DNA of 26,549 bases, taken from a virus. Numbering within the stretch: the first letter of the stretch is position 1; the number at the start of each line of letters is the position of its first letter. The stretch covers positions 1 to 26,549 of the IMG/VR virus record IMGVR_UViG_3300030419_002044. The stretch is one strand, 5' to 3'. This document shows, in pieces, positions 3,823 to 25,361 of the stretch. The notes below the pieces were generated by a model, which had not been told where the DNA came from, did not search any database, and saw nothing but the letters and a program-made list of their open reading frames with translations. Both the position numbers and the translations under genes were made by a program.

Positions 3823-4239
3823 TTATGGTTCTAGTAACCAACCCCTGTTTAGTACTTTATGCTTCCATCTATAAAAAGGTTCTGGTATTTCTAGTACCCA
3901 TTCGCCGTTAAATCCTAAATGGTTAGTTGGATCACCATAATCATGATCATTGCTATAGTTAACTAGATGTGTCCATTCAGGTATAATCTCAAAATCGTCT
4001 ATACATAACGATTGTACTATAATAGCAGTTTCAGGTGTATTATTATAGTCTTTATTTTTAAGTGCTACTCGTATATTAAACTTTTCTAATAAGCCTATTG
4101 AATCATTTAAAATCATTGATGACTTCAATGTTCCAGAATACAGTACTTTATCATTCACATGTAAGTCCATTTCAGGCATTGTACCTTTATAAGGTTCTAT
4201 ACGAGTCTTAATATCCAGCTGATTGTAGTATATGTTCAT
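3823..4239 (-). CDS. small partner protein of radical SAM gene 1
   Basis: 138 residues with alternating hydrophobic residues suggesting an all-beta domain; no signal peptide or membrane segment. Landmarks are DLHVNDKVLYSG (about 25-36), LCIDDFEIIPEW (about 78-89) and the C-terminal FNGEWVLEIPEPFYRWKHK. The start overlaps the radical SAM gene by 32 bases, so translation is probably coupled; the GGAG is only one base from the ATG, which is unusually close. The protein following the second radical SAM gene (24906-25361) shares the same order of landmarks (IDDELVYTS, LTINDVDMI, HNGKFAMELPVP), so I infer the two are remote homologues. It could be a substrate, a substrate-presenting domain or a chaperone for the enzyme. 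The function is unknown. Confidence 0.72.
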   Translation of the reverse strand: MNIYYNQLDIKTRIEPYKGTMPEMDLHVNDKVLYSGTLKSSMILNDSIGLLEKFNIRVALKNKDYNNTPETAIIVQSLCIDDFEIIPEWTHLVNYSNDHDYGDPTNHLGFNGEWVLEIPEPFYRWKHKVLNRGWLLEP

Positions 4240-5503
4240 ACTCCGGTGCGTAATCTAAGATAGTGTTTTTTCTAGAACTTTCTAGTTTTTTAATATAATT
4301 TACGAGATCAGGCCATCTATTAGTTTCGTCCGGCCCATTGCGAAGATAATCCACATAACTAAGAGCATCTCTAAGGATATACTCACGAGTTAAATTAGGG
4401 TCCCTAACATTTACCATATTAGAATCACTGCTTTTAACATTTTTACTTTTTACCCAACTATCTAAATCTTCTGCTATACTTTCCCTAACATCTTTTGGTA
4501 ATATTGACATACGCATAAAATCTGGATTGTTTAAAAAATTACAACTTTCTACGCCAACTTGGTTGTCATATGCATAATCATATATTGTTTTAAGATGTGC
4601 AATACTAAAAACAGTAGGCGTAGTTCTAATTTGTATTAGCCAGCCTATTTCTTTTGATAATGTTACCCACTTATTAAGCATATCTTTTACATGTTCAATA
4701 TTACTTGGCCATCGTAAGTAATCATTTATAGGATGCAAGCATTCAACACTCATGCCAACATTTACAGATTTAAACTTTTTTAGTAAATCAATAATATTGT
4801 TGTCCCATATGGTTAGGTTTGTTGTGAAACCAATAGTTGTTTCTTTATGTAATCCCTTGTCTACAAGTTGTGTTAGTATACGGTTAAACGCTGGCGTTAC
4901 TAATGTTTCACCTCCTATAAAATGGATATACTGTAGTTTTTTTGATTTAGTTAGAAGTTCTATAAATCTTTCTATAGCTACAGGATCATCAGTCCAATTT
5001 CTAGGAGGTAACTTATTAATCAAACCTAACTTCATAAACTCAGTTGCTAATTTACTGCTAGATTTAGGTTCGCAAAATATACAAGCACTGTTGCAATGAT
5101 TTCCAAGATCTATTTGCCAATCCTGCGGCCATAAATCAGTATCGCCGTTATTTTGTGCTGACTTAGCAAACTCATCATAGAATGTACTACTCCGTAAAGT
5201 TTTCTCAAAGTTTTTAGTATCAATGCCTACTTTAAGTAGTTGTTTTTCACGGCCACTTACCTTACCGTGCTTTTCCATTATAAAACATTGATTACATGCT
5301 TCTAAACTACCTCCTTGCAACATTGTTGCTCGTAAAGAGGACATTTCTTTTTGGAAGTATGTCACAAAATCAGTTTGATACAAATTGCTTGTTAGTTGAT
5401 TATTTTTATCAGGTAACCAACGACAATATAGCAATTTACCAGACGACAAAACCCTCATGTGAATCCATGGGCTTGCACAAAATGTTTTTGAGATAGGATT
5501 CAT
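4208..5503 (-). CDS. radical SAM protein with N-terminal auxiliary-cluster segment
   Basis: 431 residues. The SAM-binding [4Fe-4S] motif CxxxCxxC is Cys137, Cys141 and Cys144 in HCNSACIFCEP, followed by an IHFIGGETL segment that fits the SAM-binding GGE motif. Ahead of it, Cys9 (FCASPW), Cys27, Cys70 and Cys73 form the CxxPW...C...CxxC pattern of twitch/SPASM-like segments that hold an auxiliary cluster, here N-terminal. Family members catalyse radical reactions, often on peptides or proteins; the substrate here is unknown. The ATG lies five bases after a consensus TATAAT, with no SD, so the mRNA should be leaderless. A strong terminator just upstream isolates it from the late genes. The partner gene overlaps its 3' end. 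Confidence is high for radical SAM and low for any specific reaction. Confidence 0.88.
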   Translation of the reverse strand: MNPISKTFCASPWIHMRVLSSGKLLYCRWLPDKNNQLTSNLYQTDFVTYFQKEMSSLRATMLQGGSLEACNQCFIMEKHGKVSGREKQLLKVGIDTKNFEKTLRSSTFYDEFAKSAQNNGDTDLWPQDWQIDLGNHCNSACIFCEPKSSSKLATEFMKLGLINKLPPRNWTDDPVAIERFIELLTKSKKLQYIHFIGGETLVTPAFNRILTQLVDKGLHKETTIGFTTNLTIWDNNIIDLLKKFKSVNVGMSVECLHPINDYLRWPSNIEHVKDMLNKWVTLSKEIGWLIQIRTTPTVFSIAHLKTIYDYAYDNQVGVESCNFLNNPDFMRMSILPKDVRESIAEDLDSWVKSKNVKSSDSNMVNVRDPNLTREYILRDALSYVDYLRNGPDETNRWPDLVNYIKKLESSRKNTILDYAPEYEHILQSAGY

Positions 5504-5508
5504 TTTAT

Positions 5509-5538
5509 ATTATATACTATTTTGTGTGCTTTTGTCAA
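5509..5538 (-). promoter_or_regulatory. sigma70 consensus promoter of radical SAM gene 1
   Basis: TTGACA (5533-5538), an 18-base spacer and TATAAT (5509-5514). Both hexamers are perfect consensus. Only five bases separate the -10 box from the ATG at 5503, so the transcript should start at or next to the start codon. The -35 box abuts the T-run of the upstream terminator. Confidence 0.8.
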
Positions 5539-5564
5539 AAAAAGAGGTCCCCAAGGACCTCTTT
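5537..5564 (-). terminator. intrinsic terminator after the 134-residue gene
   Basis: A perfect 10-bp stem (5541-5550 with 5555-5564), loop of four, then a run of seven T on the minus strand. This is a textbook rho-independent terminator that closes the late unit containing the 888- and 134-residue genes, directly before the radical SAM promoter. Confidence 0.9.
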
Positions 5565-5590
5565 TAATAGTGATTAATAATTAATAATAA

Positions 5591-19527: not shown

Positions 19528-19887
19528 ATGCAAATAAGTAAATGTATGCGACAAGTATGTTTAGAGTGTGGATTGAATCCTAGAGCAGTAAATTACCATA
19601 GGAATGGAAAAATTTACTATAGGAAACTATGTGATTCATGTGATAGAAAAAAAACTAAGAAAAATTTACATGAAAAGAGTAGATGGCAAATGGCGGGATA
19701 CAAACAAAAATCTACGTGTGAAAAATGCGGGTTCGTTCCAGCAATACCTAACCAACTTGTTGTTTTTAGTATAGATAGAAATCAACAAAGCATTGCTATT
19801 AGAAATTTGAAAACAGTTTGTTTAAATTGTAATTATGAACTTTCAATTACTGGCTGGACACAAGGAGATCTTGAAGAAGATCTTTAA
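19528..19887 (+). CDS. zinc-binding, degenerate HNH-like protein
   Basis: 119 residues, the only plus-strand gene in the left 23 kb. Three CxxC pairs plus one more give four zinc knuckles: CLECG (about 10-14), CDSC (35-38), CEKCG (60-64) and CLNC (98-101). The spacing of the last two with an IRNLKTVCLNCN end resembles the HNH endonuclease scaffold, but the expected catalytic His positions are Ser/Asn here (VVFSIDRN, CNYEL), so activity is doubtful. The SD is weak (AAAGG three bases from the ATG); a start at the next Met (19546, MRQVC) is possible. It is divergent from gp18 and overlaps the kinase gene tail to tail by 41 bases. It could be a relic homing endonuclease or a small DNA/RNA-binding regulator. 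Confidence 0.75.
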   Translation: MQISKCMRQVCLECGLNPRAVNYHRNGKIYYRKLCDSCDRKKTKKNLHEKSRWQMAGYKQKSTCEKCGFVPAIPNQLVVFSIDRNQQSIAIRNLKTVCLNCNYELSITGWTQGDLEEDL

Positions 19888-23366: not shown

Positions 23367-23395
23367 TTGAAATAAATGAAAATATGCCGTATAAT
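23367..23395 (+). promoter_or_regulatory. sigma70-type rightward promoter of radical SAM gene 2
   Basis: TTGAAA (23367-23372), a 17-base spacer and a perfect TATAAT (23390-23395). The -10 box is 12 bases from the ATG, giving a leader of only about six bases with no SD. Confidence 0.75.
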
Positions 23396-23407: not shown

Positions 23408-24916
23408 ATGACATCTACTGATATTTTACTATGTGCAATGCCTCTTCTGGTGGTAGATAGGGCTCCTGGAGCACCTGCTATCCTAAAATCAGCAGTAATT
23501 GATGCTGGGTACACGGCTAAAGCACTAGATTTCTCAATAAATTTTTATCATAATCAATGTGATCGTGACATAAGCCTATATGAGTCATTGGGGTCAGTTT
23601 TTAGGCCAAATGAACCGATTACAGCTAGTTCACATACTGCCGGTAACGCATGGATAGCAGATAGCATTGAAGAAATAAGAAAACATAATCCTAAACTGGT
23701 AGGATTAAGCGTATTCACAAACCACCAACATCGTAGCACACTAATGTTAGCAAAGGCGGTAAAAGATAACCTTCCTGAAGTTAAAATTATTGTGGGAGGG
23801 TTAGGATTAGATCAGCCTATTAACACGAGTCTTAACAATGTAATTGAAATTGAAAAAGCAAAATCCTCTACTGTATTTGCAGATTACATTAGCGACATAG
23901 TAGATTTTACTGTGAGAGGATCATCTGGATTAGATCAAATGCTTATGATTTTAAAAATGGAGCTCGGACAAGTTAAGCCAAATGTGCAATATTTTCCTGA
24001 AGATGATCTAATATTTAAAACACCCATACCAGACTGGGATGATTACGATTTCGACGATTATGATTGGGATCATCAAGTAAGCCTGCAAGTAACAGGCAGT
24101 AGGGGGTGTGTAAGAAATTGCACATTTTGTGATATCGGTGGGCAATACGGTAAGTTCAGCTATAGAACAGGTGAAGATATTGCTAATGAGATAATAGCAA
24201 GCCATAAAAAATATGGTATAAGAACATTTGAATTTACTGATAGCCTAGTAAATGGTGGGTTAAAAGTTTTTAAGGAATGGCTTGTAAAACTTGCTGATTA
24301 CAATTCTACATTAGATCCAGAAAAAAGAATACAGTGGTTTGGGCAATACATATGCAGACCACAATCACAAACTCCAAATGAATTTTATCCTCTAATGAAA
24401 AAATCGGGTGTTATTAACCTAATCATTGGTATGGAAAGTGGCAGTAATGAAGTATTAAAAGCTATGGACAAAAAGATGACAGTGCAAGATGCCTATGACG
24501 AGCTTGAACAGTTTAGTAAACATAGGATATCAACCAGTTTACTTTTATTTGGAAGTTTTATCAATGAAACTTGGCCTAGGTTTTTAGAAACATTAGATTT
24601 TATAGCAAACTGTCAATCATATGTTGCGGACGGAACTATTACTAGATTTAACCCAGGAATTCCTCTATACATAACTAAAAAAATGCCACTAGGTGCTAAC
24701 GCAGACGAGTTGGGTCTAGTCCTTGATGAATCTAATTACTACAACTGGGTTGACAAGAACAATCCAGAATTGGATTACGTTGAGCGTTGCCGCAGAAAAA
24801 TGATTATGCAAGAACTTTTTGACTTACTTAACATTCCTGCTAATAGTGTTGGATTCTTACATCTAAAGCAAATTGATAAGCAATTACGAGAAATGACAGC
24901 TGAGTATGAAACTTAA
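23408..24916 (+). CDS. B12-binding-domain-type radical SAM protein
   Basis: 502 residues. The N-terminal about 180 residues look like a cobalamin-binding-type Rossmann domain (AILKSAVIDAGYTAKALDF, KLVGLSVFT, VKIIVGGLG), without a clear DxHxxG His motif, so B12 may bind base-off or not at all. The radical SAM core follows an acidic IPDWDDYDFDDYDWD linker; its CxxxCxxC is Cys234, Cys238 and Cys241 in GCVRNCTFCDIGG. Later segments FEFTDSLVNG and LIIGMESGSNEVLKAM fit the barrel. Class B enzymes of this kind often do methylations or other radical changes; the substrate here is unknown. Transcription starts a few bases before the ATG. The next gene overlaps by 11 bases, mirroring the radical SAM gene 1 arrangement. 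Confidence 0.88.
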   Translation: MTSTDILLCAMPLLVVDRAPGAPAILKSAVIDAGYTAKALDFSINFYHNQCDRDISLYESLGSVFRPNEPITASSHTAGNAWIADSIEEIRKHNPKLVGLSVFTNHQHRSTLMLAKAVKDNLPEVKIIVGGLGLDQPINTSLNNVIEIEKAKSSTVFADYISDIVDFTVRGSSGLDQMLMILKMELGQVKPNVQYFPEDDLIFKTPIPDWDDYDFDDYDWDHQVSLQVTGSRGCVRNCTFCDIGGQYGKFSYRTGEDIANEIIASHKKYGIRTFEFTDSLVNGGLKVFKEWLVKLADYNSTLDPEKRIQWFGQYICRPQSQTPNEFYPLMKKSGVINLIIGMESGSNEVLKAMDKKMTVQDAYDELEQFSKHRISTSLLLFGSFINETWPRFLETLDFIANCQSYVADGTITRFNPGIPLYITKKMPLGANADELGLVLDESNYYNWVDKNNPELDYVERCRRKMIMQELFDLLNIPANSVGFLHLKQIDKQLREMTAEYET

Positions 24917-25361
24917 TATTCCAAAATCAGTTATCAATAGATTACAACTAGATAGATTTGATCTGATAATAAAGTTATTAGGACCAGCAGCAATTTATAT
25001 AGATGATGAGCTTGTATATACATCTGATTATGATGATATATTAGATGTTACACATTCACATAAATTAAAAATGAACGGAGACAAGGTTGTTCTACGTATG
25101 GATTGTGCTAGCGTATATGAGTTAACTATAAATGATGTAGATATGATAACATGTGGATTAGCATATAGATTTGTTGATGGGCCAGAGTTTCATAATGGTA
25201 AGTTTGCAATGGAATTGCCTGTTCCGGTGTTGCCTGGATTTATAAAATTAGTAAGTCCAATAGAAACGCATGGATTATGGCCTAATCCAAGCCTAAAGGA
25301 CTCTATATTACAGAATATAGAGTTACTTCGTAATAGGAGTCAAAATAACAGAGCTAATTGA
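24906..25361 (+). CDS. small partner protein of radical SAM gene 2
   Basis: 151 residues, mainly beta by pattern: AAIYIDDELVYTS, KVVLRMDCASVYELTINDVDMIT, then FHNGKFAMELPVPVLPGF and a helical tail. It has the same order of landmarks as the 138-residue partner of radical SAM gene 1 (VNDKVLYSG, CIDDFEIIP, FNGEWVLEIPEP), so I infer remote homology. The first 11 bases overlap the enzyme gene, implying coupled expression. No signal peptide, membrane segment or known catalytic motif is seen. It could be the substrate, a carrier or an accessory domain for the enzyme. Confidence 0.75.
   Translation: MKLNIPKSVINRLQLDRFDLIIKLLGPAAIYIDDELVYTSDYDDILDVTHSHKLKMNGDKVVLRMDCASVYELTINDVDMITCGLAYRFVDGPEFHNGKFAMELPVPVLPGFIKLVSPIETHGLWPNPSLKDSILQNIELLRNRSQNNRAN

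Follow-up and report, generated by a model that had tools for sequence, protein, structure and literature searches.

Two overlapping gene pairs in a fragment of a jumbo-phage relative link radical SAM enzymes with members of a CBM60-like protein family

Radical SAM enzymes that work with a dedicated partner protein are exemplified by PqqE with PqqD/RRE and by AprD4 with AprD3. The PqqD-like RREs are winged-helix domains. AprD3 is a reductase, and the sugars of aminoglycosides are methylated by GenK and GenD1, which are radical SAM enzymes of class B (B12-dependent) (PMC5461906). Another group, the N-terminal twitch radical SAM proteins, is gathered in the NCBIfam model NF033640, which names no function and does not include a fixed small partner. 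Marine T4-like phages carry many radical SAM genes (12 in one genome; PMC5332604), or radical SAM cassettes in a variable region (PMC7029224); the passages on this cargo describe no partner protein or module. Radical SAM genes are a numerous and largely unexplained cargo of large aquatic phages, and several contigs carry 9–14 radical SAM domains. One record of 86,115 bases (L249, G015) carries 14, the majority concentrated in some 20 kb (48–68 kb).

The two radical SAM genes considered here each overlap a small gene, the products of which (P1 and P2) are assigned below to one family, P. No description of this pairing or of the partner family was found in the literature searched, which consisted mainly of openly accessible journal papers.

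Two gene pairs in a fragment of a jumbo-phage relative

The window (the whole stretch of DNA analysed, a 26.5 kb virus record of 26,549 nucleotides) is, judging by its proteins, a fragment of a relative of T4-like jumbo phages. Its ssb product and a structural protein share about 40–57% and 35–39% identity, respectively, with those of T4-like jumbo phages (e.g. PA5oct, Atu_ph07, RaK2 and SCTP-2). In the reference relatives, terminase is followed by structural gene(s), then by ssb and recA, without any radical SAM gene; in the window, the rSAM1-P1 pair has structural genes on one side and ssb on the other. The features of both pairs are as follows:

3823-4239, minus strand: P1, beta-sandwich partner of 138 aa, 32-base overlap with rSAM1 (profile, AF2, Foldseek, position)
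3826-3876, minus strand: P1 residues 122-138, motif FYxWxH...(Q/R)GWLLxP (conservation in 27 homologues)
4208-5503, minus strand: rSAM1, N-terminal-twitch radical SAM protein (NF033640) of 431 aa (NCBIfam, Pfam, Cys motifs)
5509-5538, minus strand: promoter-like TTGACA-18-TATAAT directly upstream of rSAM1 (12/12 consensus positions; consensus match only)
5540-5565, no strand: terminator-like perfect hairpin between rSAM1-P1 and the upstream gene (RNA fold -15.6 kcal/mol, z -4.45)
23367-23395, plus strand: promoter-like TTGAAA-17-TATAAT directly upstream of rSAM2 (11/12 consensus positions; consensus match only)
23408-24916, plus strand: rSAM2, radical SAM protein of 502 aa with a probable B12-binding domain (Pfam matches)
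24906-25361, plus strand: P2, divergent family P member of 151 aa, 11-base overlap with rSAM2 (clade profile, phmmer, AF2)

The coordinates, lengths, overlaps, cysteine motifs and shared landmarks of the two pairs given in an earlier note on this DNA all proved correct. Owing to the hairpin and the 12/12 promoter match of rSAM1-P1 and to the 11/12 match of rSAM2, both pairs look like self-contained two-gene cargo units, promoter matches alone being no proof of this.

In aquatic jumbo phages, the ssb-recA interval is a cargo hotspot (L028:9755-12982, L045:1381-4592, L050:6476-9681, L016:2688-5825), where a gene for a 175–219 aa protein of unassigned family is followed by a twitch radical SAM gene, a short-chain dehydrogenase-like gene and a second twitch radical SAM gene. 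This juxtaposition of a radical SAM gene and a reductase gene is reminiscent of the sugar deoxygenation by AprD4-AprD3. Elsewhere in the window, a small plus-strand gene with CxxC pairs (19528-19887), HNH-like by eye, overlaps a deoxynucleotide-kinase-like gene carried by the opposite strand.

The rSAM1 protein matches NF033640 over residues 5-425 (E 3.5e-73, 247 bits), well above the family cut-off of 170 bits, as do its orthologues from L287 (257.7 bits) and L016 (216.9 bits); it also matches Pfam Radical_SAM (44 bits). It carries CNSACIFC, i.e. the CxxxCxxC motif, and its N-terminus bears the auxiliary-cluster cysteines C9, C27, C70 and C73, arranged as CxxPW ... C ... CxxC. The rSAM2 protein shares a Radical_SAM domain (PF04055, 50.6 bits) and probably a B12-binding-like N-terminal domain (PF02310, 31.5 bits, just below the 32.1 cut-off) with the class B methylases GenK, GenD1 and PhpK, but it lies far under the cut-offs of all named NCBIfam functional families (87.8 versus 600 for the best-scoring one, the PhpK family TIGR04479, and 83.8 versus 281.85 for TIGR03975). 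Genes related to rSAM2 are abundant in IMG/VR (at least 551 confirmed candidates); only 23 loci of the genome collection match, most of them distantly.

Family P and its resemblance to CBM60

P1 and P2 have ordered landmarks in common (VNDKVLY/IDDELVY, CIDD/TIND and FNGEWVLEIPEP/HNGKFAMELPVP), but BLAST alone gives no significant match between them (top score 18.5 bits over 11 residues, E 0.03). A profile built from P1 and the orthologue in L016 reached a gene located 4 nt upstream of a B12 radical SAM gene in L033, and the resulting three-sequence profile (P1, L016, L033) reached the C-terminal domain of a 716-residue B12 radical SAM protein in L078. Loci with rSAM2 relatives, retrieved from IMG/VR, then extended the family to 76 members, duplicates included. 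A leave-out profile, from which the sequences of the window and L016 had been removed, finds P1 (E 6.3e-16) but not P2 (E 5.6). The latter is found at E 2.4e-10 by a profile of the four partners of the nearest relatives of rSAM2 (L173-L176), which also reaches about 50 other members of the family; by phmmer, P2 matches the L175 partner at 2.4e-7. Since the leave-out profile retrieves P1 and the L173-L176 profile retrieves both P2 and the wider family, P1 and P2 belong together, P2 being, on these profiles, a shortened and divergent member. This bears out the proposal, made in the earlier note, of a repeated module in which one partner family serves two kinds of radical SAM enzymes.

Family P is newly defined: the Pfam, PHROGs and NCBIfam models searched include no family for P1 or P2, and a PDB sequence search with the family gave no match. 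Single-protein scans of IMG/VR with P1, P2, rSAM1 and rSAM2, seeded by exact peptides and too strict, returned nothing; queries with alignments succeeded.

The AlphaFold2 model of P1 (pLDDT 89.8, pTM 0.82) is an all-beta sandwich with one C-terminal helix; the last eight residues of the protein are modelled with low confidence (pLDDT 57). The beta-type fold inferred in the earlier note is confidently predicted for P1; the P2 model is weaker (pLDDT 78.3, pTM 0.60) and has no significant structural match. An RRE of the PqqD-like type was rejected for P on fold, as the P1 model is not a winged-helix. The top two PDB matches of this model by Foldseek are both vCBM60 structures (probability 1.00), namely 2xhh (E 6.7e-5, TM 0.54/0.61) and 2xfd (E 4e-4, TM 0.55/0.66).

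P1 resembles CBM60 (PF16841) in its model fold, its strand order and a weak profile similarity. The profiles of P and of CBM60 built from genome sequences are collinear over 120 columns (P-value 8e-4) with a low HH-suite probability (9.8%), and their comparison scores 19.9 versus at most 12.6 in 40 shuffled controls. The Pfam cut-off of CBM60 is reached by none of the sequences: P1 has no hit and only three of the 49 family members have weak ones (best E 0.0082). In the profile alignment, an invariant Lys of P falls on the Asp of the CBM60 ND pair; the Asp of the DRN motif is retained in many P members, P1 having a nearby Glu instead. In CBM60, the conserved ND and DRN positions bind calcium. 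The metal site is probably altered in P, given the invariant Lys aligned with the Asp of the ND pair, and calcium-dependent sugar binding may have been lost. P is therefore described as CBM60-like and not as a CBM60; the clade of P1 also has an additional C-terminal motif.

Linkage of family P to radical SAM genes

B12 loci were chosen by the similarity of their radical SAM gene, not by the presence of P, and dereplicated to 66 B12 radical SAM genes related to rSAM2. P accompanies 44 of these: it overlaps or abuts the gene downstream in 26 cases and upstream in seven, and is fused to the C-terminus of the enzyme in 11. It was not detected for the remaining 22, some of which show a divergent P-like sequence by eye (downstream in L177, at the C-terminus in L051). 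The arrangement of P tracks the tree (11 changes versus about 33 in shuffles), in which fusions occur in at least two separate places. The trees of P and of the enzyme co-vary in this branch (Mantel r 0.72, p 0.0005), which indicates a stable unit rather than contact, as joint inheritance also yields co-variation.

Pairing is nearly fixed in the twitch branch. Among 36 loci retrieved for rSAM1, two were excluded (L350, which ends with the gene, and L362, with a match of only 23%); a P-type gene lies downstream of 33 of the 34 judgeable orthologues, L358 being the sole exception. It was found by profile in 28 loci, sometimes weakly (E 0.003-0.007), and by its ends in five (L339, L341, L351, L360 and L361), whose 81-126 aa proteins start and end like P1 but lie under the profile threshold. 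The start codon of P is mostly located 28 bases upstream of the end of the radical SAM match, so that the overlap is nearly constant. In 27 homologues of P1, the main positions of the C-terminal motif FYxWxH..GQGWLL are 85–100% conserved (F 100%, Y 96%, W 100%, H 96%, Q 93%, G 100%) and its last Leu 74%, far above the mean of 34% for residues 13-75 of the sandwich; P1 of the window has Arg where the homologues have the Gln of the motif. In the rSAM1 branch, P is a near-obligate partner, with its tail as the most constrained part. Five minimal P proteins of 81-82 aa encoded downstream of the radical SAM gene (L339, L341, L342, L343 and L360) have lost most of the sandwich but retain the C-terminal motif, the N-terminus and, between them, the strand IDGxEILP, forming a natural deletion series. 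As they are still paired with the enzyme, sugar binding cannot be a requirement in this branch.

Linkage was also assessed with P copies that had not been selected by a radical SAM gene. A first set consisted of the window and of loci retrieved through ssb or a structural gene, 161 in total; all five P genes of this set, including the two of the window, are fused to or overlap a radical SAM gene. In whole viral records, seven of 16 unselected copies have a same-strand radical SAM domain within 1 kb, against an expectation of 0.72 (p 5e-5), and the other nine are more than 1 kb from any such domain. Several of these unlinked copies adjoin genes for glycosyltransferase-like, cytidylyltransferase-like or Asp/Asn-hydroxylase (2-oxoglutarate oxygenase) proteins; in L284, L285, L286, L293 and their neighbours, P lies next to or close to a conserved glycosyltransferase-like gene with a PCYGG motif, or to cytidylyltransferase-like genes. 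Linkage of P to radical SAM genes is strong but not exclusive. That the partner would be linked to radical SAM genes in other phages, as the earlier note expected, holds in both branches (44/66 and 33/34, fusions included).

Family P is phage-centred and essentially confined to phages among the genomes sampled. Among 399 Pseudomonadota genomes, a single one has it, and the contig concerned appears to be of phage origin; searches of isolated phage records returned only distant radical SAM genes and no P. Bdellovibrionia chromosomes carry B12 radical SAM genes (and one of them also a twitch radical SAM gene) without P, so that cells provide no functional context. One such chromosome (L254:5538-9609, on a 1.2 Mb contig) has two B12 radical SAM genes and a twitch one in tandem, P being absent. 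A phage-like contig of 7.9 kb binned in a Rickettsiales MAG (L253) carries a B12 radical SAM gene, P, a glutaredoxin-like gene and a twitch radical SAM gene.

Possible roles of the pairs and comparison with known systems

The neighbourhoods of the B12 loci point to sugars. Among the B12 radical SAM loci linked to P, 15 of 43 have genes of sugar-nucleotide, epimerase, carbamoyltransferase or possible glycosyltransferase clusters nearby, whereas one of 22 does among those without P (Fisher p 0.007; a post hoc test, as these categories were chosen after the clusters had been seen). In L078, the gene for the P-radical SAM fusion is located between a gene encoding a cytidylyltransferase-mannose-6-phosphate-isomerase fusion and a cupin gene, and the locus is followed by genes of the epimerase and possible glycosyltransferase clusters. 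The earlier note suggested a virion or host protein as a possible target, which is not supported; in the B12 branch at least, the fold and these neighbourhoods point to a carbohydrate, and this branch looks like glycan tailoring.

Family membership, the fold resemblance of P1, linkage, fusion and co-variation are the observations on which the following model is built; the physical complex, the carbohydrate substrate and the chemistry are what we infer from them. Each pair would be a two-gene cargo unit made of a radical SAM enzyme and of P as its dedicated recognition subunit, a reading that we favour and to which we give about an even chance. P, a beta-sandwich related to the CBM60 fold, would bind the enzyme (with which it forms a single chain in some phages) and select or present the substrate. 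For rSAM2-P2 and the rest of the B12 branch, P would probably present a carbohydrate, and the enzyme would most likely methylate or otherwise tailor a sugar or glycan of phage or host origin. As for rSAM1-P1 and the twitch branch, the sandwich would have turned into an obligate partner of the enzyme, on which the conserved C-terminal helix and tail would dock.

According to another explanation, which we regard as unlikely, P is the substrate and the enzyme modifies its residues as in RiPPs; the core would then be the P1 tail FYxWxH..GQGWLL, and the remainder of P1 would serve for recognition. The tail is by far the best conserved part of the P1 homologues, is kept in the 82-aa forms, contains aromatic and His residues and ends in the residues of low model confidence; the order enzyme-partner with its nearly constant overlap and the presence of peptide C-methyltransferases among the nearest named relatives of rSAM2 (under the cut-off) also fit a substrate. 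However, a docking tail would show the same conservation, the fusion of P to the enzyme in separate places of the B12 tree would be unusual for a substrate, and some P genes have a glycosyltransferase or 2OG oxygenase gene as neighbour. No motif like the C-terminal one of P1 was noticed in the B12-linked members. The tail of P1 suggests docking or, with lower probability, a role of P1 itself as substrate: that it is a phage-encoded substrate whose tail is chemically altered by the twitch enzyme is considered unlikely. If true, phages would have a maturation system that uses a former CBM-like domain as the carrier of a radical-modified peptide.

It is likewise unlikely that P is a general glycan-binding module of phages without any special tie to radical SAM enzymes, these being one class among many glycan-acting enzymes. 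Nine unselected copies have no radical SAM domain within 1 kb, and some have as neighbour a gene of the glycosyltransferase-like, cytidylyltransferase-like or 2OG hydroxylase type, in agreement with such a module, but linkage to radical SAM genes is about tenfold over expectation, pairing shows almost no exception among rSAM1 orthologues, and the B12 clade combines repeated fusion with tree co-variation. Finally, that unrelated small genes merely neighbour radical SAM genes in cargo-rich regions, as the ssb-recA hotspot and the non-significant pairwise similarity of P1 and P2 could suggest, is refuted by the leave-out profiles, the fusions and the fixed pairing and is highly improbable.

The pairing leads to testable predictions (complex formation, glycan binding, tail modification), and a conserved and sometimes fused partner provides a handle on the targets of a defined group of radical SAM enzymes. 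Compared with known systems, rSAM1 belongs to the NF033640 group and adds to it a fixed small partner, and rSAM2-type enzymes differ from the class B methylases by an overlapping or fused P. CBM60 modules, which are calcium-dependent, are attached to carbohydrate-acting enzymes; P differs from them in being phage-borne and in having radical SAM enzymes as partners. Like PqqE-PqqD and AprD4-AprD3, these pairs associate a radical SAM enzyme with a dedicated protein, but P differs from both the PqqD-like RREs and AprD3 in being all-beta and CBM60-like.
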